The notes beneath the pieces are model-generated. The model had not been told where the DNA came from. It was given only the letters and a program-made list of their open reading frames with translations, and did no database searches. The position numbers and the translations under genes are program-made. Of a DNA stretch of 64,000 bases, positions 861 through 59,064 are shown piece after piece (the first letter of the stretch is position 1; every line of letters starts with the position of its first letter). This DNA comes from Polynucleobacter sp. MWH-UH19D (GTDB lineage Bacteria; Pseudomonadota; Gammaproteobacteria; Burkholderiales; Burkholderiaceae). Location of the stretch: assembly GCF_040409795.1 (NCBI RefSeq), contig NZ_CP099571.1, forward strand, positions 1,302,001 through 1,366,000. The letters are read 5' to 3'.

Positions 861-2579
861 ATGGTCAAACTAACCGCCGCCGCTACTAGATCAATTCCGC
901 GCATTATTATTTTTGCGCTGACACTGGTTTATGGATTTGCTGGCCTCTTTTTTCGTGATCCCTGGAAAAATGAGGATGCAATTGGGTTTGGTGGCATGTG
1001 GACTTTGTTTCGCGGCAACTCTCTTGACTGGGTTGTTCCACATCTTGCTGGTCGCGATGTTTCATTGGGGGCGCCACTACCCTATTGGATGGGTGCCACA
1101 CTCATTAAATTATTTAGTCAATTTATTGGCGCAGCCAATGCAGCGCGCTTGTACTCAGCGATTTGCTTTTTCGCTGCAGCACTTGCCATTTGGTACGCCA
1201 CCTATCTACTTGGTCGTCGTCGTGAAGTGCAACCCATGGCATTAGCCGTTGGTGGTCAGCCAGACATGAAGAGCTACGGCATGACCCTGGCCGATGGCGC
1301 ATTGCTCATCTTCTTAGCTTGCGTTGGTCTTGCGCAGCGCGCTCATGAAACAACGCCGATGATGGCGCAATTGATGGGTATCAGCATTGTCTTATATGGC
1401 ACCGTGCGCGGTCTTGATAAACCATGGCAAGGTGGCTTATGGACTGGCTTAGGCATTGCGATCGTCGCACTCTCCAGCAATCTCACCTTAAGTTTGATCG
1501 TTGTTACATCCACCATCATTGCAGTGATTGCGAGCAATGCAAAGTTACGTTTTCGCTGGACACTCACTAGTACCGCATTGGGTCTCATTGGTTTTGCACT
1601 CTGGCCTATCATTTGGTATCTAGCTGATCTTCCTTCTGAATGGCGTCACATTGCAGAAGAAGGTTGGCGCAATGCACCTGAGATGCGCTCAAGACCTTCC
1701 ATCGAATCCCTAGGTTTTTTAAGTGTGAACTTCTGGGCATATGCATGGCCCGTATGGCCTCTCGCAGTGATTTCCTTAGCGCACTGGGGACGTGTTAAAG
1801 CAGCAGGCGCATGGCGCGCACCCCATCTATGCATTCCACTCAGCATATTTATTGGCAGCTTAATTTACGTATTGTTTCGACTTGAGGCAAATGAGCACGA
1901 CCTCATGATCATGATCCCGAGCCTATCAATTATTGCGGCATTTAGCTTACCCATCTTAAAGCGTAGTGTCATTAGCTTCATTGATTGGTTCGCAATGTTT
2001 AGCTTTACCTTAATCGCTTTGGCTATTTGGATCATTTGGCTTGCAAAAGTCACGGGCTTCCCAGAATCTACCGCTACGAATATCACGCGACTCCTTCCTG
2101 GTTTTGAAAGTCAATTTAATTGGCTCGCATTTATAGTGGCCTTGGCCATTACTGGCGTCTGGCTCTCGGTAGTCCGCTGGAGGACCTCTCGCGCCCCTAA
2201 AGAAATCTGGCGCTGTCTGATTATTTCTGCATCTGGCACTACATTGATGTGGGTTTTATTAATGACCTTATGGTTACCAACCATCAATTACGCCAAGACC
2301 TATCGACAAGTCTCTGCTCGCTTAGTACAAGTAGTACCCTCTGGTGGTGGGTGTATCGATACCACCAATATTGGCCCCGCCCAACTTGCATCATTTGATT
2401 ACTTCACCAAACTCGCTTTGCGTGATGATCCTAATTGCCCATGGATGCTCACTCATAATCAATCTGAAGCGCAAGCCTATGCTCAACTCAATAATAAAAA
2501 ATTGCATTTGTTATGGGAAGATCGTCGTGCCGCAGACAGGGATGAGCGCCTACGTCTATATGAAGTGATTCCGGAGTAA
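861..2579 (+). CDS. GT-C fold (ArnT/PMT-like) membrane glycosyltransferase
   Basis: A 572-residue polytopic inner-membrane protein with about ten to twelve hydrophobic helices and a short soluble C-terminal domain after roughly residue 480. After the first helix comes RDPWKNEDA (residues 32-40), an acidic periplasmic loop in the position where ArnT/PMT-type GT-C enzymes carry their catalytic aspartate or glutamate. Such enzymes transfer a sugar from a polyprenyl-phosphate donor to lipid or protein on the periplasmic side; the substrate here is unknown. Only a weak ribosome site precedes ATG 861. The MATE-family gene follows after 3 bases, so the two are probably co-transcribed. Family assignment is fairly sure, exact role is not. 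Confidence 0.7.
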   Translation: MVKLTAAATRSIPRIIIFALTLVYGFAGLFFRDPWKNEDAIGFGGMWTLFRGNSLDWVVPHLAGRDVSLGAPLPYWMGATLIKLFSQFIGAANAARLYSAICFFAAALAIWYATYLLGRRREVQPMALAVGGQPDMKSYGMTLADGALLIFLACVGLAQRAHETTPMMAQLMGISIVLYGTVRGLDKPWQGGLWTGLGIAIVALSSNLTLSLIVVTSTIIAVIASNAKLRFRWTLTSTALGLIGFALWPIIWYLADLPSEWRHIAEEGWRNAPEMRSRPSIESLGFLSVNFWAYAWPVWPLAVISLAHWGRVKAAGAWRAPHLCIPLSIFIGSLIYVLFRLEANEHDLMIMIPSLSIIAAFSLPILKRSVISFIDWFAMFSFTLIALAIWIIWLAKVTGFPESTATNITRLLPGFESQFNWLAFIVALAITGVWLSVVRWRTSRAPKEIWRCLIISASGTTLMWVLLMTLWLPTINYAKTYRQVSARLVQVVPSGGGCIDTTNIGPAQLASFDYFTKLALRDDPNCPWMLTHNQSEAQAYAQLNNKKLHLLWEDRRAADRDERLRLYEVIPE

Positions 2580-2582
2580 TCG

Positions 2583-3974
2583 TTGCTGCACTTTAAGGTA
2601 TCGCGCCTACGCGAGGACATCCCCGCTCTATTAAAACTCGCTGGTCCACTACTCATTGGTCAATTAGCCGTAATTGCATTTGGTGTTTTAGATACCGCTA
2701 TGACTGCGCGTTACTCTGCTGATGACTTAGCAGCACTAGCAATGGCATCGGCGATATTTATTAGCATCTATGTAGGCCTAACAGGCGTTGTCTCAGCGCT
2801 TGCTCCAATTGCTGGACAACTATTTGGCGCCAAACGTCATCAAGAGATTGGTGAAGAGGTGCGCCAAGCCACTTGGCTTGCTATGGGCTTAACTATTATT
2901 GGTTGTTTGATTTTGCTCAATGCAGATCAACTGCTAGCAATCTCACAAGTAGCGCCCGATATCGAAGCAAAAGCCAAGCTCTATCTAAACATTTTGGCCA
3001 TTGGTTTACCTGCCAGCATGGGCATGCGCGTTTTAATGGCTTTACATAACGCAGTTTCTCGCCCAACTGTAATTACTGTCGTGCAATTGATTGGCTTAGC
3101 CCTCAAGCTACCATTAAATCTTCTCTTCATTTATGGAGGCTTCGGCATTGCAGGCATGGGCGGACCCGGATGTGCAGTAGCAACAGTCATCATCAACTGG
3201 TCTTGGCTATTAATGACCCTAGGCTTTGTGCTCTACGATCGCTTTTATCGACCCTTTCAGATTTTTGCGCACTTTAGCATGCCCGATTGGCATCGCATTT
3301 GGACTCTATTGAAGTTGGGGACTCCGATCGGATTTAGCTACCTCATTGAGGTCACATCATTCACCTTCATGTCCCTATTTATTGCGCGCTTAGGAACTAC
3401 AGCCTTAGCGGGCCATCAAATCGTCGCTAATATGGGGACAGTTATTTATATGGTTCCGCTCTCATTGTCGATTGCAACCATGACTTTGGTGTCTCAATCC
3501 ATTGGCGCCGACCAACCAGAACGCGCTGAGGAGATTGGCTGGTCATCGGTATTTTTCACTACTGGCACCTGTATTTTGATTGGGGTTGCAGTTTGGTTTT
3601 TTCGTATGCAGTTACTGGATTTATACGATCCACCGGAAGCGGTCAGAGTATTTTCGATTCCACTTTTTTTATTTATCGCCTTTTATCAAGTCTTTGATGC
3701 TTTACAAGTAACGGCGGCTTTTATTCTGCGCGCATATCGCATTGCGTTTTGGCCCATGGTGATCTACGCAGGTTCGCTGTGGGGCGTTGGGCTTGGTGGC
3801 GGATATCTAATGGGCTTTAATGTTCTAGGATTTACACCAGAATTTTTGCAAGGTGCCAATGGATTTTGGGCTGGCAACAGCATCAGCCTAGGACTAGCTG
3901 CCTGCTTGTTACTCTATCTATTTAGAAAAACGGCGGAACGTTATGAAAAAACGCATCCGCCTGTTGAGGTTTAA
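2583..3974 (+). CDS. MATE family multidrug/cation antiporter (NorM-like)
   Basis: A 463-residue, twelve-helix inner-membrane exporter of the MATE family, which extrudes cationic drugs or metabolites using a Na+ or H+ gradient. Recognisable pieces are PLLIGQLA in helix 1, the GVLDTAMTA segment, and the repeat of the same architecture in the second half (GTPIGFSYL, LAGHQIVANMG). The start is TTG 2583: GGAG at 2573-2576 gives a 6-base spacing and there is no ATG near the N-terminus of the fold. That ribosome site lies inside the end of the preceding glycosyltransferase gene, which suggests translational coupling. Confidence 0.88.
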   Translation: MLHFKVSRLREDIPALLKLAGPLLIGQLAVIAFGVLDTAMTARYSADDLAALAMASAIFISIYVGLTGVVSALAPIAGQLFGAKRHQEIGEEVRQATWLAMGLTIIGCLILLNADQLLAISQVAPDIEAKAKLYLNILAIGLPASMGMRVLMALHNAVSRPTVITVVQLIGLALKLPLNLLFIYGGFGIAGMGGPGCAVATVIINWSWLLMTLGFVLYDRFYRPFQIFAHFSMPDWHRIWTLLKLGTPIGFSYLIEVTSFTFMSLFIARLGTTALAGHQIVANMGTVIYMVPLSLSIATMTLVSQSIGADQPERAEEIGWSSVFFTTGTCILIGVAVWFFRMQLLDLYDPPEAVRVFSIPLFLFIAFYQVFDALQVTAAFILRAYRIAFWPMVIYAGSLWGVGLGGGYLMGFNVLGFTPEFLQGANGFWAGNSISLGLAACLLLYLFRKTAERYEKTHPPVEV

Positions 3975-10506: not shown

Positions 10507-12420
10507 CTAACCCAAACCAAAATAAATAGCTATGCGATAAGTAATGAAAGAAGCGATATACGCTAGTCCAAATAAGTAACTCAACATTACAGCCGGAACT
10601 TTCCAGCCACCAGTCTCTCGCTTCACAGCAGCAATCGTAGATAGGCACTGGGGTGCAAATACAAACCAAGCCAATAAGGAAAGTGCGGTAGCTAAAGACC
10701 AATCCCCTGAAATCAGGGGTATTAACGCTTCAGCAGCATCAGCACTAGAGCTAGATAAAGCATACACCGTAGCCAATGAACTCACCACCACTTCACGTGC
10801 AGCCATCCCCGGCACTAAGGCAATGCTAATTTGCCAATTAAAACCAATTGGCGAAAAGATGTTCGCTAGAGCTTCGCCCAGCATCCCCGCAAAACTATAT
10901 TGAATTGGTGGCAAGGTTGCACCTTCAGGCGGTAGCGGAAAGCTCGATAACACCCATAGTCCAATTGTCATCACTAAAATGACGCCACCAACTCGACGCA
11001 AAAAGATTTCAGCGCGTTGCCATAGGCTGATTGCTAGATTACCCAATCGAGGCAAGTGATAGCTGGGCAACTCCATCATCAATACATTGGTTCTAAACTG
11101 CTCGCTCGCAAAACGCTTCAATACCCAAGCAACTGCCATTGCCCCCAGGATTCCAGCGAGGTAAAGAAGGAATAAAACCAATCCCTGCAAATCAATATTC
11201 GCCCATAGCTTTTGTTGCGGAATAAATGCGGAGATCAACAACGCATACACTGGCAGACGCGCAGAGCAAGTCATCATTGGCGCTATCAAAATAGTTACCA
11301 AGCGATCCCGAGAATTAGAGATACTTCTCGTTGCCATGATTCCTGGAATGGCGCAGGCAAAACTAGATAGCAAAGGAATAAATGAACGGCCAGACAACCC
11401 TACCGACCCCATTACCCTATCTAACAGATAAGCCGCTCTTGGCAAGTAGCCAGACTCCTCAAGCAGCAGAATAAAGAAAAATAAAATCAAGATTTGTGGC
11501 AAGAAAATCACCACGCCACCAAGTCCCGCCAAAATACCATCAATCAACAAACTTCTAAGCCAGGTATCTGGAAGGAACTCGCTAATTTGACCGCCAAGAT
11601 ATTCAACAGAAGACTTAATTATTTCCATTGGCACTGTCGCCCAACTAAACACCGCTTGGAAAATAAAAAAGAGTAGCGCTACCAAAATAATGGGCCCCAA
11701 GACCGAGTGCAACAAGACAGAGTCCAAACGATCGCTCAAGCGATCAGGAATAATTTGATCGAGACCCAAATTCGTTAAGATCCGTTGAACTTGCACGTTA
11801 TCTGCCTCAGCATGAGCAATATGCGAGGCAACATTTTCTAGGGTGGCGTCACTAGTACCAGTGCGCAAATTATTTAGATTGCGCCAATCTAATTCTGCTA
11901 AGCATGACTTAATTTCATCAGCGCCATTTGCATGAATACCTACGCTTGTAACTACGGGCAGACCCAATTCTTTTGAAAGCGCTGCAGTATCAATATTCAA
12001 ACCTTGACGCTTAGCTACATCCAACATATTCAGAACAACTACGCAAGGTAAGCCCAAGCGCTTGGCAGCCAAAACTAAACGCAAATTACGACGCAAGTTC
12101 ATTGCGCTCAAGATGCACAACACTAAATCTGGGCGCTTCTCACCTTCCGCACGACCCATCAATACATTACAAGTGACACGCTCATCAAGCGATCTTGGAT
12201 ACAAGCTGTAAGCACCCGGCAAATCTAATATGCGAATATTTTTTCCGGAAGATAAAGTGAGACGCCCTTCCTTTCGCTCAACGGTAACGCCAGAGTAATT
12301 AGCAACTTTTTGTCGGCTACCAGTTAACAAGTTAAATAAGGCAGTCTTTCCACAATTCGGATTGCCCAATAGGGCGACCAGGGGCTCGCTAGGGAAAAAG
12401 TGGACAGTGGATTCAGTCAT
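10507..12420 (-). CDS. feoB: Ferrous iron transporter FeoB
   Basis: A 637-residue Fe(II) importer of the inner membrane. The N-terminal G-protein has G1 GNPNCGKT (residues 19-26), the G2 threonine in YSGVTVERKEG, G3 DLPGAYS and G4 NMLD. After a helical GDI region come the transmembrane core and the Gate motifs, including FACAIPGIMATR with the conserved cysteine. It overlaps feoA by 8 bases (12413-12420), so the two are translationally coupled. No feoC follows. Transcription very likely starts upstream of feoA under Fur control. Confidence 0.97.
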   Translation of the reverse strand: MTESTVHFFPSEPLVALLGNPNCGKTALFNLLTGSRQKVANYSGVTVERKEGRLTLSSGKNIRILDLPGAYSLYPRSLDERVTCNVLMGRAEGEKRPDLVLCILSAMNLRRNLRLVLAAKRLGLPCVVVLNMLDVAKRQGLNIDTAALSKELGLPVVTSVGIHANGADEIKSCLAELDWRNLNNLRTGTSDATLENVASHIAHAEADNVQVQRILTNLGLDQIIPDRLSDRLDSVLLHSVLGPIILVALLFFIFQAVFSWATVPMEIIKSSVEYLGGQISEFLPDTWLRSLLIDGILAGLGGVVIFLPQILILFFFILLLEESGYLPRAAYLLDRVMGSVGLSGRSFIPLLSSFACAIPGIMATRSISNSRDRLVTILIAPMMTCSARLPVYALLISAFIPQQKLWANIDLQGLVLFLLYLAGILGAMAVAWVLKRFASEQFRTNVLMMELPSYHLPRLGNLAISLWQRAEIFLRRVGGVILVMTIGLWVLSSFPLPPEGATLPPIQYSFAGMLGEALANIFSPIGFNWQISIALVPGMAAREVVVSSLATVYALSSSSADAAEALIPLISGDWSLATALSLLAWFVFAPQCLSTIAAVKRETGGWKVPAVMLSYLFGLAYIASFITYRIAIYFGLG

Positions 12421-12655
12421 TCACTGGCTCCACCTCAATCATGTGCACCTCGGAATAGCGCAAAGCAAATGTGGAAGCCCCTACTCGCACAAGATAGGGT
12501 CCTTTTTTTAATAAGCCTTTGCGCAATAAAGTAACCTGCTCTCCTGGCAAAAAACCAATATCTTCCAGTTGCCCCTTAATTTGAGGAGCGCCTTTGGGTG
12601 AATTGACTACGCTCACCCGATAAAGACTGCCTAAGCGTACTTGGTCTAAATTCAT
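12413..12655 (-). CDS. feoA: Ferrous iron transport protein FeoA
   Basis: An 80-residue SH3-like cytosolic protein required for FeoB activity. It has the family pattern LGSLYRV...QLEDIGFLPGEQV...GASTFALRYSEV. It is the first gene of feoAB. There is no strong ribosome site before ATG 12655. The upstream region carries a TATAAT box and Fur-type palindromes. Confidence 0.95.
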   Translation of the reverse strand: MNLDQVRLGSLYRVSVVNSPKGAPQIKGQLEDIGFLPGEQVTLLRKGLLKKGPYLVRVGASTFALRYSEVHMIEVEPVND

Positions 12656-12698
12656 GTAATTTATTCAATATGCTTGTTTGTGCCTGAAGTTTTGATTT

Positions 12699-12739
12699 GA
12701 TAGTCATTATAGCGATAAATGAGAATGACTATCATTCAT
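12699..12739. promoter_or_regulatory. Fur-type operator and feoAB promoter
   Basis: The feoA upstream region holds a perfect 10-bp inverted repeat, GATAGTCATT (12699-12708) and AATGACTATC (12724-12733). The right arm is itself part of AATGA-CTA-TCATT (12724-12736). The 19 bases at 12721-12739 match the GATAATGATAATCATTATC Fur consensus at 13 positions by eye. On the minus strand a perfect TATAAT (12706-12711) lies inside this element, so bound Fur would block feoAB. The TSS would be about 45 bases before feoA. The divergent gene at 12855 may share the region. Confidence 0.72.
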
Positions 12740-12854
12740 ACAAAAGAAGAGAAATTTAGACAAATAATGCGGTATTTTTAGTCAGCCAGCTTTGATCCAA
12801 AGCAAAAGCTGAGCTGCTAATGCATACTGACCAAAATCTTTTTATAGTTGAGAA

Positions 12855-13475
12855 ATGTACTTACCAAAACACTTCGCTGCTGATGATCAAGACTTGCTAG
12901 CGCAGCTCATCAAGGAGTACCCGCTTGCCACTCTTGTTGGCAGCCTCAATGATCAACTCGAGGTTAATCACTTGCCATTGATGCTCAGCTCCGATAAAAA
13001 GAAGTTGCATGGGCACATCGCTAGAATGAATCCGCTGATGAAGATTGCGCAGAGTTCAGAAACTGCGGTTACGGCAATCTTTCATGGCCCTAATGCTTAT
13101 GTCACTCCAGCATGGTACCCCTCTAAAAAGGAATCAGGAAAAGTTGTTCCAACCTGGAACTATGCGGTAGTTCATGCGCAAGGTCACATTAAACTCATTG
13201 AAGATGCGCTATGGCTCAGGAGTCATGTGTCGCAAATGACCAATATTCATGAGCCAACCTATCAATCAAACTGGAAGCTTGATGATGCTCCAGAAGACTA
13301 TGTGCAAACAATGCTCAAAGCAATTGTTGGAATCGAGATCGAGGTTGAGAGTTTGGTTGGCAAATTTAAGCTTAGCCAAAATCGCCCTCCAGAGGACTGC
13401 GATGCCGTTGTGAAAGAACTAGAGAAATCCCCGCAAGAAATGTTGCAAGCTATGCGTCAATATATGAAGCCGTAA
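12855..13475 (+). CDS. FMN-binding negative transcriptional regulator family protein (PaiB-like)
   Basis: A 206-residue protein of the PaiB family, a split-barrel flavin-binding fold. The opening MYLPKHFAADD and the segment HGPNAYVTPAWYPSK..VPTWNYAVVHAQG (about residues 77-110) are typical. In Bacillus the PaiB protein acts with PaiA in repressing sporulation and protease genes, but in proteobacteria its role is unknown and an enzymatic function is possible. It is divergent from feoAB, about 200 bases away, and convergent with modA. Confidence 0.85.
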   Translation: MYLPKHFAADDQDLLAQLIKEYPLATLVGSLNDQLEVNHLPLMLSSDKKKLHGHIARMNPLMKIAQSSETAVTAIFHGPNAYVTPAWYPSKKESGKVVPTWNYAVVHAQGHIKLIEDALWLRSHVSQMTNIHEPTYQSNWKLDDAPEDYVQTMLKAIVGIEIEVESLVGKFKLSQNRPPEDCDAVVKELEKSPQEMLQAMRQYMKP

Positions 13476-13486
13476 ATGAATTGCGA

Positions 13487-14242
13487 TTATGGTGTTGCAT
13501 AACCATATTTAACTAGGATTGCCTTAGCCTGAGTGGTCTGCATAAATTGATACAACTCCCTAGCCTCTTGTGAGGCCCCTCTCAAGAGAACCATTCTTTG
13601 TTTGATGGGCTCATAAAGTTTTGGGTTTAACAAAACAAAATTTGTCTCTTTGATCACCTCAGGCGACTTTGCCAAGGAAAGCGCAGTAAACCCAATCTCT
13701 GCGGCACCTGTGACAACGTAGGTTGTTGCAATACCGATATTATCGCCGTACACCAACTTATCCTTAGCCAGACCCCATAAGCCCTCAGACTTCAGAAATT
13801 GAACCGTCGCCCTACCATAAGGGGCTAACTCTGGTTTGGCGATAGCCACCTTATTTGCTTTAGCAATTATTTTTGCTAACTCCACTTTGTTATCAACCAA
13901 AACCACCCCAGATTGACTCTTCGCGATCAAAGCCAATTTACCTACGGCATACACTACTCCATCATCAATTGTCTTGCCGTTCTTGTAAAGCTCCAAAGGA
14001 AATTGCTCATCTGCAGCAATAAATAAACTAAATGGCGCGCCATTCATAATCTGTGCAGTGAAATTACCTGACGAACCATAAACCACCCTCATCTCTGACT
14101 TTCCTGCCAATTTGAACGCAGAGGCAATTTCAGCGAAAGCGTCTTTCATATTCGAAGCTACAGCAACTGTTGTGCTTTGGGCAAATGCTAGATTTACACA
14201 GAGCAAGAAAACCGCTAATAGAAAATTTGAAAAAGGACGCAT
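13487..14242 (-). CDS. modA: Molybdate-type ABC transporter substrate-binding protein ModA
   Basis: A 251-residue periplasmic oxyanion-binding protein. After the signal peptide (ending AFAQ) come the ligand-binding segments AVASNMKDAF, YGSSGNFTAQI and the later YVVTGAAEIGFTAL, as in ModA. ATG 14242 is chosen because AGGGC lies about 7 bases upstream; a start at 14263 would add an unlikely leader. No modB or modC is adjacent. The next gene upstream on the same strand is a ModE/PBP-like regulator, and two TupA-like proteins diverge beyond it, so it is part of a molybdate/tungstate locus. Confidence 0.87.
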   Translation of the reverse strand: MRPFSNFLLAVFLLCVNLAFAQSTTVAVASNMKDAFAEIASAFKLAGKSEMRVVYGSSGNFTAQIMNGAPFSLFIAADEQFPLELYKNGKTIDDGVVYAVGKLALIAKSQSGVVLVDNKVELAKIIAKANKVAIAKPELAPYGRATVQFLKSEGLWGLAKDKLVYGDNIGIATTYVVTGAAEIGFTALSLAKSPEVIKETNFVLLNPKLYEPIKQRMVLLRGASQEARELYQFMQTTQAKAILVKYGYATP

Positions 14243-14281
14243 AGTTAGCCCTATTCTAGTCAAACAACTCTTCTATAACCA

Positions 14282-15304
14282 CTATAGCCAGCTTTCAACT
14301 TGGCGATTTAGACTAATCGCTTTATAGCCCGGAATTTTGCTCGAATAACTACGAATTCTACGAACCAATTTCGATGATTCAGGATGAGCAAGCATCTCTT
14401 TATGCATTGCAATAAAAAATACCTCATCTTTCAGCGGCACAAAACCTAAGCCATTTTCTAAAGCAACATTTTTTACCCCAAGACCAACATCAGCCTTACC
14501 AGCCAATATCGCATTGGCAACTGCAGAGTGAGTAAATTCTTCATGAAGATAGCCATTGATTTCAGAAGGATCAATGCCTTGTTCGATCAAGGATGTATCA
14601 AGCAATAACCTTGTACCAGAGCTAATTTGGCGGTTAATGAAACGAATTTTAGGATTCAGCAAATCTTCAATTGCATGGATACGCAATGGATTCCCCCTCT
14701 TCACCATAAAACCTTGAGTACGCTTCATCACGGGGAAAATTTCAATACCGTGTTTGCGCAACCGCTCATGAATGACTCGCGAATTCTTTTCGTCTGATAC
14801 ATGGTAGCCGGCTATATGAGCATTGTTACTTAGCAATTGCTCTAAAGATTCTCCAGATCCAGCAATCTTTAAGCCAAATCCTTTTACTTCGGAAACAACC
14901 TTCTGAATAACCGAGTCACTACTGGAATAAAAACTCCAGCGAGCATTTTCTATTTTTTGATATTTCTTAATTTCTCTATGCAGAGTGTCTTCATAATTGA
15001 TTCCATGCTGCACATAAGCGCCCTGCAACTCTTCAATAAATTGACATAGGAATGAGCCAAATTCTGTTAATTTTGAGCCGTGCCCTTTGGTACGAACTAT
15101 CAAAGGTATACCTAGACTTGCCTCAACTTGATTCAACTTTCCCCAAACGCCGCGATAAGAAACTCCAGAGTTTTTGCTGGCCAAGACCAATGAGCTGCCA
15201 CCCCGAATATCTTTTAATAACCCTACTAGCCAGTAAAGATCAATAGCATCCTTTTCCGGTTCTCGAGCATTCAGAATGAGGGTTGGTCTAGCTTCTATTC
15301 GCAT
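14282..15304 (-). CDS. ModE-like winged-helix regulator with PBP-like sensor domain
   Basis: A 340-residue predicted transcription factor. Residues about 20-95 form a ModE/LysR-type winged helix (LYWLVGLLKDI, ASKNSGVSYRGVWGKLNQVE, IVRTKGHGSKLTEFG). Residues about 115-325 resemble the periplasmic-binding-like domain attached to such HTH regions (IAGYHVSD, INRQISSGTRLLLD, HSAVANAILAGKADVG), closely related to molybdate/tungstate-binding proteins. It lies between modA (same strand, 39 bases) and divergent tupA-like genes, so control of the locus by oxyanion level is a strong inference. A palindrome lies in the divergent region. Confidence 0.8.
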   Translation of the reverse strand: MRIEARPTLILNAREPEKDAIDLYWLVGLLKDIRGGSSLVLASKNSGVSYRGVWGKLNQVEASLGIPLIVRTKGHGSKLTEFGSFLCQFIEELQGAYVQHGINYEDTLHREIKKYQKIENARWSFYSSSDSVIQKVVSEVKGFGLKIAGSGESLEQLLSNNAHIAGYHVSDEKNSRVIHERLRKHGIEIFPVMKRTQGFMVKRGNPLRIHAIEDLLNPKIRFINRQISSGTRLLLDTSLIEQGIDPSEINGYLHEEFTHSAVANAILAGKADVGLGVKNVALENGLGFVPLKDEVFFIAMHKEMLAHPESSKLVRRIRSYSSKIPGYKAISLNRQVESWL

Positions 15305-15316
15305 ATGTAATTTTTT

Positions 15317-15343
15317 GCATATTCATTAAGTATTAATGTATGC
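15317..15343. promoter_or_regulatory. Candidate operator between the regulator and tupA-like genes
   Basis: CATTAA (15324-15329) and TTAATG (15333-15338) form a 6-bp inverted repeat with GTA between them. It is framed by GCATA (15317-15321) and TATGC (15339-15343), extending the dyad with a 2-base bulge. It lies 13-40 bases before the regulator start and about 50 bases before the tupA start, where an autoregulated operator is expected. Confidence 0.5.
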
Positions 15344-15391
15344 GATGATACAAATTTACTCAACCCCCATCGTATTTAAATGAGGTATTTC

Positions 15392-16216
15392 ATGAACAAA
15401 GCACTTAACTCGTTTTTCGTAAGTCTCTTACTTGTCACATCCACCCTCACTTCGAATGTCCAAGCCCAAGAAAAAAGCATTATTGTTTCCTCAACAACAT
15501 CTACTGAGCAATCCGGCTTGTTTGGCTATATCCTGCCAATCTTTAAGATGAAATCTGGCATTGATGTCAAAGTGGTCGCCGTTGGAACGGGTCAAGCACT
15601 TGATATCGGTCGGCGCGGTGATGCGGATGTCGTCTTTGTGCATGACAAACCCGCCGAGGAGCAGTTTGTTCAGGATGGCTACGCCACAAAACGCTATGAA
15701 GTCATGTACAACGACTTTATATTGATCGGACCTAAATCTGATCCAGCAAAAGTTGGCGGCGGCAAGGATATTCAGGCTGCCTTTCAAAAGATTGCAGCAG
15801 CTCAGGCACCCTTTGTCTCACGTGGAGATAAAAGCGGTACGCATGCTGCTGAACTCCGGTATTGGAAAGGCGCTGGTATTGCCGTTTCCCCAAGCCAGTC
15901 TTGGTATAAAGAAACTGGCTCAGGCATGGGTCCTGCTCTCAATACTGCCTCTGCTATGAATGGCTACATCCTTGCTGACAGAGGCACCTGGTTAAGCTTC
16001 AAGAATCGTGGGGATCTCACGATTCTTGTTCAAGGTGATCCCAAACTCTTCAATCAGTATGGTGTGATGCTGGTGAACCCAGCTAAGTTCCCTCATGTTA
16101 AGAAAGCAGAAGGGCAAGCATTTATTGATTGGCTAGTTTCCAAAAATGGTCAAGACGTCATTGCTAGCTATCAAATTGGTGGTGAACAACTCTTTTTCCC
16201 GAATGCGAAGAAATAA
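15392..16216 (+). CDS. tupA: Tungstate-type substrate-binding protein TupA
   Basis: A 274-residue periplasmic oxyanion-binding protein. After the signal peptide (ending VQAQ) it has the TupA ligand motif SSTTSTEQSGLF, then VGTGQALDIGRRGDADVVF, FVSRGDKSGTH and GSGMGPAL, all typical of TupA-type proteins that bind tungstate with very high affinity. ATG 15392 is chosen because GAGG at 15382-15385 is 6 bases upstream; the ATG at 15380 overlaps that site. It begins a three-gene unit with a second TupA-like protein 2 bases downstream and a TOBE protein. No tupB or tupC is next to it; a matching pair is at 55350-56745. Confidence 0.88.
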   Translation: MNKALNSFFVSLLLVTSTLTSNVQAQEKSIIVSSTTSTEQSGLFGYILPIFKMKSGIDVKVVAVGTGQALDIGRRGDADVVFVHDKPAEEQFVQDGYATKRYEVMYNDFILIGPKSDPAKVGGGKDIQAAFQKIAAAQAPFVSRGDKSGTHAAELRYWKGAGIAVSPSQSWYKETGSGMGPALNTASAMNGYILADRGTWLSFKNRGDLTILVQGDPKLFNQYGVMLVNPAKFPHVKKAEGQAFIDWLVSKNGQDVIASYQIGGEQLFFPNAKK

Positions 16217-16218
16217 TC

Positions 16219-17091
16219 ATGCGCCTGCTGAATATATGTAAAGCAACATCTCTAGGTGCATTGCTTATCAGTGGATGTTATATATCTATGGCGCAAAGCA
16301 ACCCAACTTCTCCAGAGGCCATTTATGGAAAGAGTGCTAAAAGCTTCACTCTCGCAACTGGTAGCCCTGGAGAGCTAGGTCTTCTACAAGCACTGGGTGA
16401 GGCTTTTGATAAAAAAGAGGGTGCTCGTTTAGTTTGGATCAAAGCAGGTAGCGGCGCCTCACTCAAGCTATTAAAAAATGCTCAGGTTGACATGATCATG
16501 GTGCACGCACCCGATGCCGTTAATAAAGCTATTGCTGAGGGTTGGGCCGTCAATAGAACATTAATTGGTTCGAACGAGTTTTATATTGTTGGACCAAAAA
16601 ATGATCCAGCTAGCATCAAAATAGCTTCAAGCGGCGCTGATGCGTATTTAAAAATCGCAAATACACAAAGTAAATTCATTTCTAGGGGCGACAACTCTGG
16701 GACTCACCAAAAAGAAATAGATATCTGGAAGAAGACTGGCATCACGCCTAACGGCTCATGGTATATCGTCACAAATGACTTCATGACTGCATCCCTCAAA
16801 AAGGCAAATGCAGAGGATGCGTACTTTATGACTGATAGCAGCACTTGGGTCGCCGAGAAAGATATTGCTCCAAATCTGCAAATTCTTTATCGAGGCGATC
16901 CATTTTTAGTCAATACTTATGATGCCCTAGCAGCTCCAGTTGGGGCAACCGCCAATCGAGATATTGCAGTGAAATTCATTCAATTCGTTTCGTCGAATGA
17001 AGGCCAAAAGATCATTCGGGACTACGGCAAATCAAAGCACAGAGAGCCTCTCTATAATGACGCTACATATGCCAAGCAATATGCTCACTAG
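16219..17091 (+). CDS. Second, divergent TupA-like binding protein
   Basis: A 290-residue paralogue-like neighbour of the preceding TupA. It shares the fold landmarks KAGSGASLKLLKNAQVDM, IVGPKNDPA, FISRGDNSGTH and the C-terminal layout, but the first ligand loop reads LATGSPGELGLL instead of the TTST motif. The N-terminus carries LLISGC, which fits a lipobox, so it may be a lipid-anchored protein. It starts 2 bases after tupA and is followed 8 bases later by the TOBE gene. Its ligand may be a different oxyanion. Confidence 0.78.
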   Translation: MRLLNICKATSLGALLISGCYISMAQSNPTSPEAIYGKSAKSFTLATGSPGELGLLQALGEAFDKKEGARLVWIKAGSGASLKLLKNAQVDMIMVHAPDAVNKAIAEGWAVNRTLIGSNEFYIVGPKNDPASIKIASSGADAYLKIANTQSKFISRGDNSGTHQKEIDIWKKTGITPNGSWYIVTNDFMTASLKKANAEDAYFMTDSSTWVAEKDIAPNLQILYRGDPFLVNTYDALAAPVGATANRDIAVKFIQFVSSNEGQKIIRDYGKSKHREPLYNDATYAKQYAH

Positions 17092-17099
17092 GGGAAATT

Positions 17100-17324
17100 A
17101 TGGAATTAAAAGTTAAGCTAAGCGCACGCAATACTCTGAGCGGTAAAGTGGTTGAGCTCAAAATGGGTCAAACTACCTCGCATGTGAAATTAGATATTGG
17201 AGGGGGCCATATTGTGACCGCCTCGATCACCAACGAAGCCGTCGGAGAACTCAATCTAAAGGTGGGAGATCAAGCATGGGCGGTTATTAAAGCCTCTGAC
17301 GTCATGGTGGCTAAAGAGGCTTAA
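17100..17324 (+). CDS. TOBE-domain molybdate/tungstate-binding protein (molbindin)
   Basis: A 74-residue single TOBE/Mop domain (SARNTLSGKVVELKMGQTTSHVKLDIGG, ASITNEAV, GDQAWAVIKASDVMVA). Such small proteins assemble into oligomers that store or buffer molybdate or tungstate in the cytoplasm; the same domain is the regulatory part of ModC and ModE. GGGGAAATT precedes ATG 17100. It closes the tupA unit and is followed by a strong hairpin terminator, so the unit ends here. Confidence 0.9.
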   Translation: MELKVKLSARNTLSGKVVELKMGQTTSHVKLDIGGGHIVTASITNEAVGELNLKVGDQAWAVIKASDVMVAKEA

Positions 17325-17341
17325 AAGTAGGCTCCTTAAAC

Positions 17342-17367
17342 AAAAAGCCCGCATTAGCGGGCTTTTT
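17342..17367. terminator. Bidirectional intrinsic terminator
   Basis: GCCCGC (17347-17352) and GCGGGC (17357-17362) form a perfect stem with loop ATTA, flanked by five A residues on the left and five T residues on the right. It can stop transcription from both the tupA unit and the convergent gene at 17406. Confidence 0.9.
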
Positions 17368-17405
17368 GTTTTGCCAGATTAATCCAGCAAATTTTATATA
17401 AGGAA

Positions 17406-17987
17406 TTACTTCTTCGGCGTTACAAAACCAATCGCAGTGTCGTCCACAAACTCAACCATTACATCATCGCCAGCTTTAAATTTCTCGAGACCAAGAACAC
17501 TGGAATCAACTTTCACTTTTTGCTTCTCGCCACTTGGCATTGTGAAAGTAACGATGCGAGTTTTTTGATCAATTGTGCTGATTTTTACGGTTGCATAAAT
17601 CGTGTCGGTAGTTTCTTCAAAAGGCTTTGCAGATCCTTTACCAGCTACCACAACAGAACGAACACCAGAAACGCCAGGCTTGGCATCTTTGCCAGCAGCA
17701 GTTAAACCAACTGCAATCGCTTGGGCATGCTCAACCAAGAATACGTCACCCTTCTTTACTTTATCCAAATCATTTACAGACTTGGCAACATTCATCTGCG
17801 CCAAATTACCATTCGCATCTTTCAATACAACAATGCGTTTTTTTGCGTCCACTGAATCTACCGTTGCACTAAGAACTACTACATCGGCAGCCAAAGGCAA
17901 CATTTTGGTAGGCAATTGAGCAGAGGCAGAGGTAGCAAAGGCAATACCAATAGCGGCAAATAGACCAGCAAGTAAAGATTTCTTCAA
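17406..17987 (-). CDS. Exported protein with an internal duplication, function unknown
   Basis: A 193-residue protein with a clear signal peptide (cut after ASA, residue 23). I do not recognise a named family. The mature part is a tandem duplication: residues about 36-95 and about 128-189 follow the same pattern (SATVDSVDAKKRIVVLKD against YATVKISTIDQKTRIVTFT, then KVKKGDVFLVEHAQAIAVG against KFKAGDDVMVEFVDDTAIGF). Each copy looks like a small beta-barrel of OB or SH3 type. No cysteines. It is monocistronic, between a terminator and a divergent acetyltransferase. Periplasmic binding or scaffold role is only a guess. Confidence 0.7.
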   Translation of the reverse strand: MKKSLLAGLFAAIGIAFATSASAQLPTKMLPLAADVVVLSATVDSVDAKKRIVVLKDANGNLAQMNVAKSVNDLDKVKKGDVFLVEHAQAIAVGLTAAGKDAKPGVSGVRSVVVAGKGSAKPFEETTDTIYATVKISTIDQKTRIVTFTMPSGEKQKVKVDSSVLGLEKFKAGDDVMVEFVDDTAIGFVTPKK

Positions 17988-19640: not shown

Positions 19641-20711
19641 ATGACCACCATCAATAACACCAACCAATCAAATGAACCGCGCCTAACCTCCCTCTCGCAT
19701 GGGGGTGGCTGTGGTTGCAAAATCGCACCTAGCGTTCTTTCTGAGATTCTCAAGAATGTGCCGCAGTTGCCATTCCCTAAAGAACTCTTGATTGGCATTG
19801 AAACTTCAGATGATGCGGCCGTATATCAAGTTAATGACTCGCAAGCGATTGTTGCTACTACTGACTTTTTTATGCCGATCGTAGATGATCCATTTGATTT
19901 CGGAAAAATTGCTGCAACTAATGCTATCAGCGACATCTATGCCATGGGTGGCACCCCACTCTTTGCTCTTGCCTTGGTTGGTATGCCCATCAAGGTGCTA
20001 TCCAACACAACCATCGCCAAAATTTTGGAGGGCGGTGCTGAGGCCTGTCGCAGCGCGGGAATTCCAATTGCTGGCGGTCACACCATTGATTCGGTAGAGC
20101 CTATTTATGGACTAGTTGCTATTGGTATTGTGGATCCTAAACGCGTCAAAAGTAATGCGAAAGCGCAACCCGGAGATGTATTAATACTAGGCAAACCATT
20201 GGGCGTTGGTGTTTTGTCAGCAGCCCTCAAGAAAGATTTACTTGGACCAGATGGGTATCGTGAAATGATTTCAAACACCACGAAACTCAATTCTGCTGGC
20301 CCTGACTTGGCAAAAATCAATGGCGTACATGCCTTAACTGATGTCACAGGCTTTGGTTTAGCAGGACACACCCTAGAGTTGGCTCGGGCATCAAACTGCA
20401 CTGCTCACATTGACTGGAGTCAAGTACCCCTACTATCCAATGTTCAAAATCTAGCGGATGAAGGAATCATTACGGGGGCATCTGATCGCAATTGGCTTAG
20501 CTATGGCGATGAAGTTGCTATACCCGCGAATTTCACTACAGCGCAGCGCGCACTACTAACAGATCCCCAAACCAGTGGTGGCTTATTAGTGTCATGCAGC
20601 CCTGAGTCCGTTAAAGAAGTGCTGAATATTTTTAACCAACATCATTTTTTAGGCGCTCGCGTGATTGGTCAAATGAGCAAACGACAAGGCAAGCCTTTAG
20701 CTGTTTCGTAA
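19641..20711 (+). CDS. selD: Selenide, water dikinase
   Basis: A 356-residue enzyme that makes selenophosphate from selenide and ATP. The catalytic GGGCGCK (residues 21-27) has cysteine, not selenocysteine, at the key position (Cys24), followed by an AIRS-type fold with TSDDAAVY, NAISDIYAMGG, GGHTIDS and LTDVTGFGLAGH. Selenophosphate is used for selenoproteins and for tRNA 2-selenouridine. No selA, selB or mnmH is in the window, and the formate dehydrogenase at 59065 uses cysteine, so tRNA modification is the likelier local use. It starts 21 bases after the dioxygenase gene. Confidence 0.95.
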   Translation: MTTINNTNQSNEPRLTSLSHGGGCGCKIAPSVLSEILKNVPQLPFPKELLIGIETSDDAAVYQVNDSQAIVATTDFFMPIVDDPFDFGKIAATNAISDIYAMGGTPLFALALVGMPIKVLSNTTIAKILEGGAEACRSAGIPIAGGHTIDSVEPIYGLVAIGIVDPKRVKSNAKAQPGDVLILGKPLGVGVLSAALKKDLLGPDGYREMISNTTKLNSAGPDLAKINGVHALTDVTGFGLAGHTLELARASNCTAHIDWSQVPLLSNVQNLADEGIITGASDRNWLSYGDEVAIPANFTTAQRALLTDPQTSGGLLVSCSPESVKEVLNIFNQHHFLGARVIGQMSKRQGKPLAVS

Positions 20712-55349: not shown

Positions 55350-56045
55350 ATGTTCACCGCCTTTCATGATGCTTTCACACTACTAGCACGCCTCGATAGC
55401 GGTGTCATTGGCATTGTCTTGGTTTCTCTTCAGGTTAGTTTAAGCGCCCTTCTATTTGGCGCACTCATCGGGGTACCAATCGGAGCCCTGCTAGCTACCG
55501 AGGAATTTAAGGGCAAAAAGGCGATTATCGTGACCCTCAACACGCTCATGGGGGTTCCCACGGTTATTGTCGGGGTGGTGGTGTATCTAATGCTTTCCCG
55601 CTCAGGCCCCCTGGGAGCCTGGGGATGGCTTTTTACTGCAAAGGGTATGACCCTTGCTCAAACCTTGCTAACCACCCCCTTAATTGCTGCCCTTAGCCGA
55701 CAAATCCTTGAAGACTCCTGGAAGATTCATCGGGACTCATTTTTAAGCCTTCGCCTACCGCTATTTTCTCGTTATAAGTGGCTTATTTGGGATTGCCGTT
55801 TTTCATTAACAATCGCTATTTTGGCTGGTCTTGCCAGAGCAATATCTGAAGTCGGCGCAGTCATGATTGTGGGTGGCAATATTGATCACTCCACCAGAAC
55901 GATGACTACCGCTATCGCCCTAGAAACTAGTAAGGGTGATTTGCCGCTAGCCTTGGCATTAGGAATCATCCTATTAACCATTGTTCTTCTAGCCAATTTA
56001 TTTACTTTTGCCGTGCGCCAGATAGTGGAGCGTCGTTATGGTTAA
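55350..56045 (+). CDS. tupB: Tungstate-type ABC transporter permease TupB
   Basis: A 231-residue inner-membrane permease with about six helices. The EAA-type loop is around LEDSWKIHRDSFLSLRL, and SEVGAVMIVGGNIDHSTRTMTTAI is typical of the TupB/WtpB/ModB group with its conserved GG-N region. It overlaps tupC by 8 bases. It lies next to the convergent formate dehydrogenase operon, an enzyme that needs Mo or W, while the matching binding proteins are at 13487-17324. Confidence 0.87.
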   Translation: MFTAFHDAFTLLARLDSGVIGIVLVSLQVSLSALLFGALIGVPIGALLATEEFKGKKAIIVTLNTLMGVPTVIVGVVVYLMLSRSGPLGAWGWLFTAKGMTLAQTLLTTPLIAALSRQILEDSWKIHRDSFLSLRLPLFSRYKWLIWDCRFSLTIAILAGLARAISEVGAVMIVGGNIDHSTRTMTTAIALETSKGDLPLALALGIILLTIVLLANLFTFAVRQIVERRYG

Positions 56046-56745
56046 TCACAAGGAACAGTTTGGGCGATTCATCGAGCTCAAAGATATTACCGTCGCAAGG
56101 AATGGTCGCACCATTTTGAATATTCCACATGCTCTCATCCCAGCAGATCGAATTACGGCCTGCATTGGGCCCAACGGGGCTGGAAAAACTACTCTACTAA
56201 AGCTACTCGCCGGACTCATTCAACCTGATACTGGCACCGTTCAATTTTCATTTGCTAGCAAAACCGCTTTAGTACTTCACCATAACCCAATGATCAAGGC
56301 ATCAGCGCGCACTAACATCAGCTTAGCAAAAGAGGTTGATGCCACCATTACCGATCAAGCTATTGATGTCGCTTTGAAGCAGATTGGACTCAGCGAATTA
56401 GCACAAAATCCTGCACATAAGCTCTCAGCGGGCGAACGTCAAAAACTCTGCCTTGCTAGGGCTATGTTACAAAAACCAAATTTGCTACTACTAGATGAGC
56501 CAACGGCAAATCTTGACCCTAGCTCCACCGATCAAGTAGAGGGGATGATTCGCAAATTTAATATTGAAGGCGCGGATGTTCTCTTCTCCTCCCACCAACT
56601 TGCACAAGTACAAAGGTTGGCTCAATACATTCTCTTTATCGATCAAGGTGAGATAAAAGAAAAGGGACCCTCTGGCCCCTTCTTTTCAAATCCGCAAACT
56701 ACTTCGGCTAAACGCTACTTACATCAAGAATTAATTCTTGAATAA
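56038..56745 (+). CDS. tupC: Tungstate-type ABC transporter ATPase TupC
   Basis: A 235-residue ABC ATPase. Walker A is GPNGAGKTTLL (about residues 42-52), the signature LSAGERQKLCLARAML, Walker B LLLLDEPTANLDP and the switch His in SSHQLAQV. It lacks the C-terminal TOBE domain of ModC, as expected for TupC; a free TOBE protein is at 17100. It overlaps tupB and its 3' end is convergent with the fdh operon. Confidence 0.87.
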   Translation: MVNHKEQFGRFIELKDITVARNGRTILNIPHALIPADRITACIGPNGAGKTTLLKLLAGLIQPDTGTVQFSFASKTALVLHHNPMIKASARTNISLAKEVDATITDQAIDVALKQIGLSELAQNPAHKLSAGERQKLCLARAMLQKPNLLLLDEPTANLDPSSTDQVEGMIRKFNIEGADVLFSSHQLAQVQRLAQYILFIDQGEIKEKGPSGPFFSNPQTTSAKRYLHQELILE

Positions 56746-57035: not shown

Positions 57036-58091
57036 TTATTTATTCACCTTGTTATACCAAAGCTCATGATGCTCCTTAGCCCAAGTAGCATCCACGTAAC
57101 CAGTTTTCATGCCGTCGATTGAACCTTGCGAGCCAATCGTACCAATGTAGATGTGCCCCATTGCCATCGCAGTCATCAAAATTGCTGCACTACTGTGAAT
57201 AATATTGGCGATTTGCATCGTGCCACGGGTATATTCAATACTCATAAACGGAACGATCATATCAAGCACAAATCCAGACGCTGAGATTACCAAACCTAAG
57301 AAAGTCATCCCGAACCAGAACCAGAATTTCTCTCCAAAATTAAAGAAGCCTGCTGGAATATGTTTGCCAGAGAAAATGCCACCGAAACCCATAATCCAAT
57401 CGACATCTCCTTTGCTAGGTATATTTTTATGAGCAAAGAGTAAAAAGAAGATCACGATACAGATCGTAAATAACGGGCCAGTAAAGTTATGGATATTCTT
57501 GCAAAGCGCTAAAAATGATCCATAAGCCACCCCACCCATCAATGGCATTGCAAAATACTTGCCATAGAGAATTAAGAGGCCCGTAAACGCAAGCGCCAAG
57601 AAGCTAAATGCCATCAGCCAATGCACAAGACGATCAAAAGCACTAAATCGCTTAATTTTTACGCCTGACAATGGCTCATGCAATTTCATTGGACCTTTTA
57701 AGGTGTAGGTTGCAATAATTCCAAAGAATGCAATCGCTAATAACCAACCACCATATACAGTAATGACCCCATTACGAATCAGGCGCCACTCTTGACCTGA
57801 ACGCTGAATCAGAACACTCGACTCCTTGTCTGGAATGCTGACGTAGTTATAGGGATCGCTATTAGCTGTTGTAAAGATAGATGGGTTTGCGGGTTGTGAT
57901 TGCGCTTGAGTTCCGCTCGCTAAAGCATTTGGATTTGCAGGCACCGAGGATGGCGGGATATCCACACCACTTGGTGATGGCAATGGCGCCATCGGCGCAC
58001 GTTCCGCAAAGGCAACACCGCTAACCACCGTGAGCGATAAACCTAAAGTCACCACCAAAGTGCCTAGTAATTTAGAAAATGATCGTTTCAT
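57036..58091 (-). CDS. fdhC: Formate dehydrogenase gamma subunit (cytochrome b556)
   Basis: A 351-residue membrane cytochrome b that passes electrons from formate to quinone. The core (about residues 150-340) has SAFDRLVHWLMAFSFLALAFTG and NIHNFTGPLF with haem His, and IANIIHSSAAILMTAMAMGHIYIGT. An N-terminal extension of about 120 residues carries a signal peptide (ending AFAE) and a periplasmic Pro/Ser-rich domain. It lies 56 bases after the lipoprotein gene in the fdh operon. Confidence 0.92.
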   Translation of the reverse strand: MKRSFSKLLGTLVVTLGLSLTVVSGVAFAERAPMAPLPSPSGVDIPPSSVPANPNALASGTQAQSQPANPSIFTTANSDPYNYVSIPDKESSVLIQRSGQEWRLIRNGVITVYGGWLLAIAFFGIIATYTLKGPMKLHEPLSGVKIKRFSAFDRLVHWLMAFSFLALAFTGLLILYGKYFAMPLMGGVAYGSFLALCKNIHNFTGPLFTICIVIFFLLFAHKNIPSKGDVDWIMGFGGIFSGKHIPAGFFNFGEKFWFWFGMTFLGLVISASGFVLDMIVPFMSIEYTRGTMQIANIIHSSAAILMTAMAMGHIYIGTIGSQGSIDGMKTGYVDATWAKEHHELWYNKVNK

Positions 58092-58147
58092 AAAAAATGT
58101 CCTTGAACGTTATCGACGTTATCGTTTTATTTATTGTTTTCTGATGA

Positions 58148-58381
58148 TCACTTAATACGACTGTATTCGTTTTGACCTTGAGTACGCTTATCAATCGACT
58201 CAGTCCAGCTAGCTTGATTGCCGGGCGTCCAGCCTTTTGTCACGAAACCATTATTAGCGCCCATATATGGAGCAACATCGGGGCGCTTGGCTGCCTTAGC
58301 GGCAATCTCAGGCGGCTCGGAACAAGCAGTCAATAGTCCAGCAGCAATACAAAGACCTAGGATTTTGTAATAGGCTTTCAT
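58148..58381 (-). CDS. Small lipoprotein of the fdh operon
   Basis: A 77-residue protein with a lipoprotein signal (GLLTACSEP, Cys at residue 20) and a short polar domain (GFVTKGWTPGNQASW, RTQGQNEYSR). No family name is known to me. Its start shares a base with the fdhB stop (TAATG), so it is translated with fdhB. It may anchor or stabilise the periplasmic FdhAB part at the membrane. Confidence 0.7.
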   Translation of the reverse strand: MKAYYKILGLCIAAGLLTACSEPPEIAAKAAKRPDVAPYMGANNGFVTKGWTPGNQASWTESIDKRTQGQNEYSRIK

Positions 58382-59037: not shown

Positions 59038-59064
59038 TGTGTTCTCCTGACTCTATCTTTTAAC

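Follow-up and report, generated by a model that had tools for sequence, protein, structure and literature searches.

This study concerns a cluster of putative molybdate and tungstate uptake genes at positions 13487-17324 of a 64,000-nucleotide stretch of the Polynucleobacter sp. MWH-UH19D genome. The whole stretch is called the window here (C1:1302001-1366000 of a single-contig genome of 1.95 Mb). The cluster encodes three receptors of ATP-binding cassette (ABC) importers (ModA, TupA1, and TupA2), a regulator (Reg), and a small TOBE protein (Mop). Judging from the sequences, I favor with some confidence a decentralised uptake of molybdate and tungstate, in which receptors, store, and switch share one locus and the pumps ModBC and TupBC are encoded elsewhere. 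Receptor-pump separation is common among the related species sampled.

As an earlier sequence-only reading had described, a modA gene, two tandem TupA-like genes, a TOBE gene, and a gene for a ModE/PBP-like (periplasmic binding protein-like) regulator lie together, and all five were located by family profiles. They form two divergent units separated by a 75-bp intergenic region. The left unit, on the minus strand, comprises Reg (14282-15304; PF12727, 177.9 bits), whose product joins a ModE/LysR-type helix-turn-helix (HTH) to a PBP-like sensor domain, and modA (13487-14263; TIGR01256, 172.6 bits with a cut-off of 62.5, and PF13531), which encodes the predicted molybdate-binding protein of an ABC importer. 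From the start codons, modA likely begins with the ATG at 14242, followed by a signal-like peptide, which places 39 bases between the Reg stop codon and this ATG. The right unit, on the plus strand, comprises tupA1 for a predicted tungstate-binding TupA protein (15380-16216; PF12849, 154.8 bits), tupA2 for a second TupA-like binding protein of a distinct subfamily with an LATGSPGE motif (16219-17091; PF12849, 103.6 bits), and mop for a TOBE protein of 74 residues (17100-17324; PF03459, 65.8 bits, and TIGR00638 Mop, 78.9 bits with a cut-off of 55). The spacers are 2 bases (tupA1-tupA2) and 8 bases (tupA2-mop). A palindromic operator-like site (ATATGYAA-N4-TTRCATAT, 15303-15322) lies between the two units and overlaps the Reg start codon. 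In the PDB comparison, the solved chains closest to ModA are themselves ModA (best 7t4z, E 1e-29), and the structure closest to TupA1 is 3lr1 (E 7e-71). No ABC permease or ATPase was found among the open reading frames (ORFs) of at least 90 amino acids over 10507-17987, which agrees with the sequence-only reading. The protein encoded at 17406-17987 was also considered as the TOBE protein and ruled out, as it has no TOBE match. The same neighbourhood recurs across the genus, so the locus is not due to chance; an artefact or a one-off arrangement was ruled out.

The two candidate pumps are found at a distance. The permease gene tupB (55350-56045, plus strand; NF038017, 227.1 bits with a cut-off of 100) and the gene for the ATPase of the same importer, tupC (56038-56745, plus strand; PF00005, 96.4 bits), overlap by 8 bases. 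As previously noticed, tupBC (55350-56745) lies 38 kb from the receptor cluster beside formate dehydrogenase genes and is the only such pump found in the window. The adjoining fdh genes for the gamma, beta, and alpha subunits (57036-62043, minus strand) have matches to TIGR01583 and FDH3_beta NF038355 over the cut-offs, while the alpha subunit has 473.9 bits to TIGR01591, under its cut-off of 666. The fdh product is a candidate tungsten user near tupBC. According to the available part of PMC13197769, tup genes adjoin tungsten-use genes in other organisms too. The modBC genes, overlapping by one base, are at C1:813526-815306, about 0.5 Mb (500 kb) from the window modA, with no modA adjoining. 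In a profile search of the genome, ModB exceeds its cut-off (about 206.6-206.9 bits vs 182.6), and ModC falls short of TIGR02142 (181.2 bits, cut-off 285) and has no TOBE match. In the same search, the window ModA is the single protein passing the ModA family cut-off. A second ModA candidate (C1:1930565, 51.9 bits) was rejected, as the next gene reads by eye as a TSUP/sulfite-exporter-type permease and not as part of a molybdenum system. Thus, modA and modBC do not form a single ModABC operon. A complete modABC elsewhere had been named beforehand as a finding that would speak against the sequence-only reading; modBC is indeed elsewhere, but its modA is the window copy.

Is the separation of receptor and pump common in the genus? 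I searched 61 Polynucleobacter genomes (this one and 60 others) for TupB, PF12849, ModA, Reg, TupA2, ModB, and the formate dehydrogenase (FDH) alpha subunit. Fifty-one of them, with completeness of at least 90% and contamination of at most 5%, are called good genomes, the other 10 being excluded from that set. The presence counts include broken gene copies and leave out a second TupA1 copy of G001 (C10:49553) and the second fragments of genes split in drafts. TupA1 was found in 56 genomes, TupB in 59 (one broken), TupA2 in 22 (two broken), ModA over its cut-off in 57, and Reg in 51. TupA1 and TupB genes are neighbours in 8 genomes, apart on the same contig in 32, and on different contigs in 16. 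Both are present in 50 of the 51 good genomes (broken in G017) and both are absent from G032; they are neighbours in 7. Thus, tupB has no tupA1 alongside in 43 of the 50 good genomes having both, and the possibility that tupBC of relatives is always accompanied by its own tupA, also named beforehand, is not what was observed. The distance between the two is 23-58 kb in 16 of the 17 single-contig genomes with both, so the separation is not an assembly artefact. PstS served as the control: among the matches listed, all 16 genomes with both have a Pst-type permease no more than about 2.3 kb from a PF12849 protein of PstS size; these names come from size and neighbourhood, and the permease rows of G009 and G042 have no PF12849 partner among those matches.

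The separation seems to be old. A tree of TupB plus TupC was made for 58 of the 61 genomes (G009, G017, and G032 have no intact TupB and were excluded). A tupA1 gene adjoins tupB only in one clade of seven genomes and in G015. None of the genomes in a clade of 46 (support 100/96) has a tupA1 adjoining tupB, tupA1 not being found in three of them, and the fewest changes explaining the adjacency on the tree is two. Since these 46 rows fall in one supported clade, the sequences indicate that the receptor-pump split is old, on a tree whose deep order is unsure because of the long branches of G046, G015, G054, G016, and G043. In the split clade, 35 of the 46 genomes have an FDH alpha gene no more than 8 kb from tupB. 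The same was seen in none of the 8 genomes with tupA adjoining tupB, 7 of which possess the gene. Formate dehydrogenase as the reason for Tup was rejected as too weak an explanation: FDH alpha is present in 52 of the 61 genomes, two of the nine genomes without it also have no TupB, and four good genomes (G015, G016, G047, and G048) have Tup without FDH alpha. In one clade of three genomes, the pairing seen in the window is reversed; FDH is about 3.5 kb from tupA1 or Reg (G050:C12:240842-248043, G001:C10:43037-50233, and G037:C47:6-7193) and tupB is on another contig. It was also found that several genomes of the genus have a further tandem PBP_like_2 pair which is, by position, neither PstS nor TupA1/TupA2 (G024:C1:1110462 and 1111307; G033:C1:728356 and 729231; G016:C1:510039 and 510933; also in G008 C6, G026, and G038).

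The second TupA-like protein was then compared with TupA1. The available part of PMC5517513 gives H59, R118, T124, and D170 and a TTTS motif as oxyanion-binding elements of TupA. I found 110 relatives of TupA2 and kept the best 80, of which 52 lie outside the genus cluster and 28 are the closest loci (L178-L205). The window TupA2 and these 28 form one clade (Shimodaira-Hasegawa-like approximate likelihood ratio test, 99); six of the 28 are assigned only to Burkholderiaceae or to a beta proteobacterium. Because similarity to TupA2 determined the ranking of the loci, divergent members are missed, and the 81 TupA2 and 49 TupA1 sequences compared are tblastn-matched stretches, not whole genes; the search patterns QVDMIMV and GSNEFYIV exclude the scored columns. 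The pocket residues H, R, T, and D are present in 49/49 TupA1 sequences, the window one included, and in 81/81 TupA2 sequences. In TupA1, the TTTS region begins with S (38/49, as in the STTS of the window) or T (11/49), and the remaining three residues are invariant. In all 81 TupA2 sequences, this motif is replaced by A-T-G-S-P-G-E, and the D-R-G/A of nearly all TupA1 sequences corresponds to D-S-S. A structural model of TupA2 (predicted local distance difference test, pLDDT, 89) has the TupA fold (5my5, Z 29.4, root-mean-square deviation 2.2 over 242 residues). Identity to the window copy is 68-82% in an alignment of 20 genus sequences and 55-68% in the 52 outside loci, which belong, by record titles, to Rhodocyclaceae, other betaproteobacteria, Nitrospirota, and Desulfobacterota. 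Only 9 of 299 sampled genomes of the family have TupA2 at E 1e-45 or better, all of them in Polynucleobacter. By these sequence characters, TupA2 is a distinct TupA-like subfamily.

Of the 52 outside loci, 19 encode TupA2, TupA1, and TupB on the same strand, and in every one of these 19 an ATPase gene adjoins that of TupB. The gene order is tupB-tupC-tupA1-tupA2 in all eight betaproteobacterial loci with the three genes and tupA2-tupA1-tupB-ATPase in 7 of the other 11. Since the three are combined in these loci, TupA1 and TupA2 probably share TupBC; TupB is most likely the permease fed by TupA1, and probably by TupA2 as well. Six outside loci have TupA1-TupA2 without a TupB in reach. In two tup operons with Nitrospirota titles (L208:2379-7994 and L224:7084-11379), the order is TupA1-like, TupA2, TupA1-like, and then tupB and tupC.

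It is somewhat unlikely, in my view, that TupA2 and Mop instead form a separate cassette that does not feed TupBC, as a periplasmic oxyanion buffer or sensor or as a receptor for another importer such as ModBC. Such a cassette would fit the tupA2-mop pair, which stays joined far from the tup genes in several genomes, and the 27 of 52 outside loci that have neither TupA1 nor TupB in the stretch examined (some of the stretches are short). The latter suggest that TupA2 could also function independently of TupBC or together with different partners. No recurrent neighbour was found for these 27 lone genes beyond one generic group, present in five loci. One Desulfobacterales locus (L241:6417-8819) has ModA-, ModB-, and ModC-like genes directly upstream of TupA2, a hint of pairing with a Mod-type pump. 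What stands against the separate cassette is the group of 19 loci, in which TupA2 keeps company with TupA1 and TupB in betaproteobacteria, Nitrospirota, and Desulfobacterota (by record titles) and in more than one gene order.

The sequence-only reading proposed that one transporter serves several receptors. At best, this holds up for TupA1 and TupA2, as described above, and it is probably wrong for ModA, as the genome encodes a ModBC. It is improbable that ModA, TupA1, and TupA2 are interchangeable receptors of TupBC as their sole pump, even though all three flank one operator-like site and no other pump of this kind was found in the window. With an orphan modBC in the genome, ModBC is most likely the pump served by ModA. 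Fifty of the 51 good genomes have both ModA and ModB, and the last one (G041) has neither. Thus, two pumps are indicated, not one serving all. Moreover, ModA is of another family than TupA, and in 9 of 57 genomes (8 of the good ones) modA does adjoin modB. The two genes are apart on the same contig in 23 genomes and on different contigs in 25, and the distance is 134-628 kb in 17 of the 18 single-contig genomes with both. Finally, that TupA2 is a non-binding relic retained by linkage is hardly credible: it has no TTTS motif, which the available part of the TupA literature links to ligand binding (PMC5517513), and it is broken in G017 and G001, but the invariant A-T-G-S-P-G-E and pocket residues in several phyla and the identity within the genus indicate strong constraint, not decay, and the broken copy in G017 says little because that genome decays more widely, fdh and tupB included.

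In G017, the tupB, tupA2, Reg, modB, and fdh genes all have stops or frame breaks, as in a genome under reduction. Their co-decay was dropped as evidence, since breaks affect many genes in the two G017 stretches that were read.

How might the locus be controlled? Reg adjoins tupA1 in all 50 genus genomes with both and is divergent from it in 48; a broken Reg was seen in G023 (C1:310173-311201). The sensor domain is the PBP-like one expected of the TaoR family (PF12727, 177.9 bits, cut-off 27). On the DNA-binding side, a Pfam scan at E up to 0.001 gave only HTH_1 (25.3 bits, cut-off 26.6) and not HTH_17. The match to the ModE repressor domain is also low (TIGR00637, 29.9 bits, cut-off 98.5) and there is no TOBE match, so Reg is not a ModE by these marks and its DNA-binding class is only approximate. 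In a model of Reg (pLDDT 84), residues 120-335 align to the ModA-like 4kd5 (Z 16.2), TupA 5my5 (Z 15.6), and LysR effector domains (Z about 15); the tied scores of 15-16 do not separate ModA/TupA from LysR effector domains. By analogy with ModE and TaoR, Reg would be a repressor and its ligand an oxyanion.

The palindrome at 15303-15322 is the sole site of the window without mismatch. Among the 43 genus genomes whose divergent Reg/tupA1 intergenic region could be read, the 16-base core of the palindrome is present in 40 and altered by one base in three; a second genus set, overlapping the first, has it in 20 of 21 loci. Outside the genus, where Reg is 32-34% identical to the window Reg, TATGYA-N6-TRCATA with 0-1 mismatch is present in 7 of 8 intergenic regions beside a divergent Reg, upstream of tupB or tupA1; the eighth locus (L214) has no palindrome. 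In its own genome, the 18-base form of the operator has one further exact site (C1:393816-393833). Upstream of tupB, modB, and fdh of the same genome, no palindrome was found; the best sites have four mismatches, as is most common in the background (the best site has four in 429 of 733 stretches of 220 bp). A wider regulon extending to tupBC, modBC, or fdh was rejected on this ground. The core pattern with up to two mismatches, at 225 genome places per strand vs 149 for the reversed control, is too loose for use, and a one-mismatch place inside modC (C1:814332) is probably due to chance. With no palindrome seen ahead of tupB, modB, or fdh, a single switch may act on capture and storage and not on the pumps. 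No Rfam family, the Moco RNA riboswitch included, was above threshold in the window or around modBC, and a promoter and terminator scan of the locus gave counts no higher than in shuffles.

The Mop protein matches PDB 1h9j (E 7e-20) and the Tub chain 9beb (E 1e-15), and has the single TOBE domain of about 70 residues that characterises Mop/Tub molbindins. It is likely, from these similarities, to be a cytoplasmic molybdate/tungstate store. The mop gene directly follows TupA2 in 20 of the 22 genus-survey genomes that have TupA2 (the exceptions are G043 and G001, where TupA2 is broken) and in 27 of the 28 loci of the second, overlapping genus set (the exception is L202). The pair also stays joined where it is distant from tupA1. 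In relatives, the site between tupA1 and the 17406 gene holds tupA2-mop, mop alone (G002, G026, G030, and G058, and, at the end of a contig, G040), or neither; the flanks on both sides are conserved. In G014, two minus-strand genes, thioesterase-like and iron-type alcohol-dehydrogenase-like by eye, occupy this position (L355, G014:C1:1375000-1381000, 1520-3114). Thus, the site exchanges cargo. Further downstream, 2.3 kb from mop, is a gene (19641-20711) that I take to be selD-like by its SLSHGGGCGCK motif. The formate dehydrogenase of the window reads through without a stop, and it presumably has Cys at the place of Sec.

Taken together, the decentralised uptake may work as follows. Receptors would meet their pumps in the periplasm, and therefore gene linkage would not be needed. 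ModA would dock on ModBC, and both TupA1 and TupA2 on TupBC. Reg would sense cytoplasmic molybdate or tungstate through its PBP-like domain and, when the metal is sufficient, repress both divergent units at the palindrome. In this way, the cell could tune the amount of oxyanion caught and stored, leaving the pumps untouched by the Reg switch. With its changed lobe-A loop, TupA2 may widen or shift the range of oxyanions delivered to TupBC, and Mop would hold the surplus for formate dehydrogenase and other molybdenum/tungsten (Mo/W) enzymes. The earlier notion of a selectable Mo/W importer with differing oxyanion preferences is compatible with the changed TupA2 pocket, which does not itself demonstrate it. 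I suggest only tentatively that Mo/W uptake is set by one oxyanion switch at capture and storage, not at pumping, and that TupA2 is a widespread second receptor class giving TupBC another preference, e.g., for molybdate over tungstate. As TupA1 and TupA2 probably share a pump, exchanging the receptors alone could be enough to probe Mo/W discrimination.

Several observations weigh against the decentralised uptake and its single switch. Co-occurrence is no proof that a given receptor docks on a given permease. TupA1, TupA2, TupB, ModC, and the ModE domain of Reg all score below strict family cut-offs; against the equivalog cut-off of 400 bits of NF041772, TupA1 has 242 bits, which makes it TupA-like by the strict rule, and TupA2 has 140.1, while TupB has 162.1 bits against 320 for the equivalog NF041773, having passed the broader NF038017. 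Only 25 of the 51 good genomes have modA no more than 5 kb from Reg, and 7 of the 51 have no Reg match; Reg and tupA1 have the same orientation in G001 and G043. TupA2 is patchy in the genus (22 of 61 genomes), more than half of its outside loci have neither TupA1 nor TupB in the stretch examined, and in Desulfobacterota the tup genes are often not nearby. Factors other than Reg could control the pumps.

Among the best-ranked literature matches, no description was found of a Mo/W locus that encodes only the receptors of two importers, of a TupA2 subfamily, or, in titles and abstract starts, of a two-receptor tup operon; no paper in the collection searched mentions Polynucleobacter together with tungstate. 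How does the locus compare with known systems? The TupABC tungstate importer is reportedly known from Desulfovibrio alaskensis, Campylobacter jejuni, and Eubacterium acidaminophilum. As in TupABC, the pocket H, R, T, and D are kept in TupA1 and homologues of TupB and TupC are present. In contrast, receptor and pump are 38 kb apart here, a second, altered TupA is in the operon, and TupA1 has STTS for TTTS. The locus resembles ModABC with ModE in that ModA and ModB pass curated cut-offs and modA is accompanied by a linked regulator that has a ModE-like HTH, but modA is 0.5 Mb from modBC, Reg has a PBP-like domain and no TOBE match, and the TOBE domain is in the free Mop. According to the available parts of PMC11980592 and PMC10102598, the TaoR family consists of HTH and PBP-like regulators of tungstoenzymes and Mo/W transport. 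Reg likewise joins a DNA-binding domain to a PBP-like sensor and is linked to tup genes, although its HTH is LysR/ModE-like and that of TaoR-like proteins is HTH_17 (PMC11980592). A TOBE tungstate store, Tub of Eubacterium limosum, is described in the same source (PMC11980592). The 74-residue protein matches it, as shown above, but its gene stands directly behind tupA1 and tupA2. The available part of PMC6147048 counts ModABC, WtpABC, and TupABC over genomes and does not treat orphan receptors. Its LATGSPGE and DSS mark TupA2 as a TupA-like subfamily, which is found within tungstate operons in several phyla and for which a general family scan gives only PBP_like_2.

Several receptors for one ABC importer are said to be an established idea ('Homes for the orphans', Thomas 2010), and HisJ/LAO is an example. 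The present case is similar in having one permease with more than one receptor and orphan receptors encoded away from the pump. It differs in that a single operator-like site is flanked by genes for the receptors of two different importers and for a cytoplasmic store, both pumps being elsewhere. These results show an old and stable separation between ABC receptors and pumps in much of a small-genome freshwater genus, with a shared operator-like site kept at the receptors.

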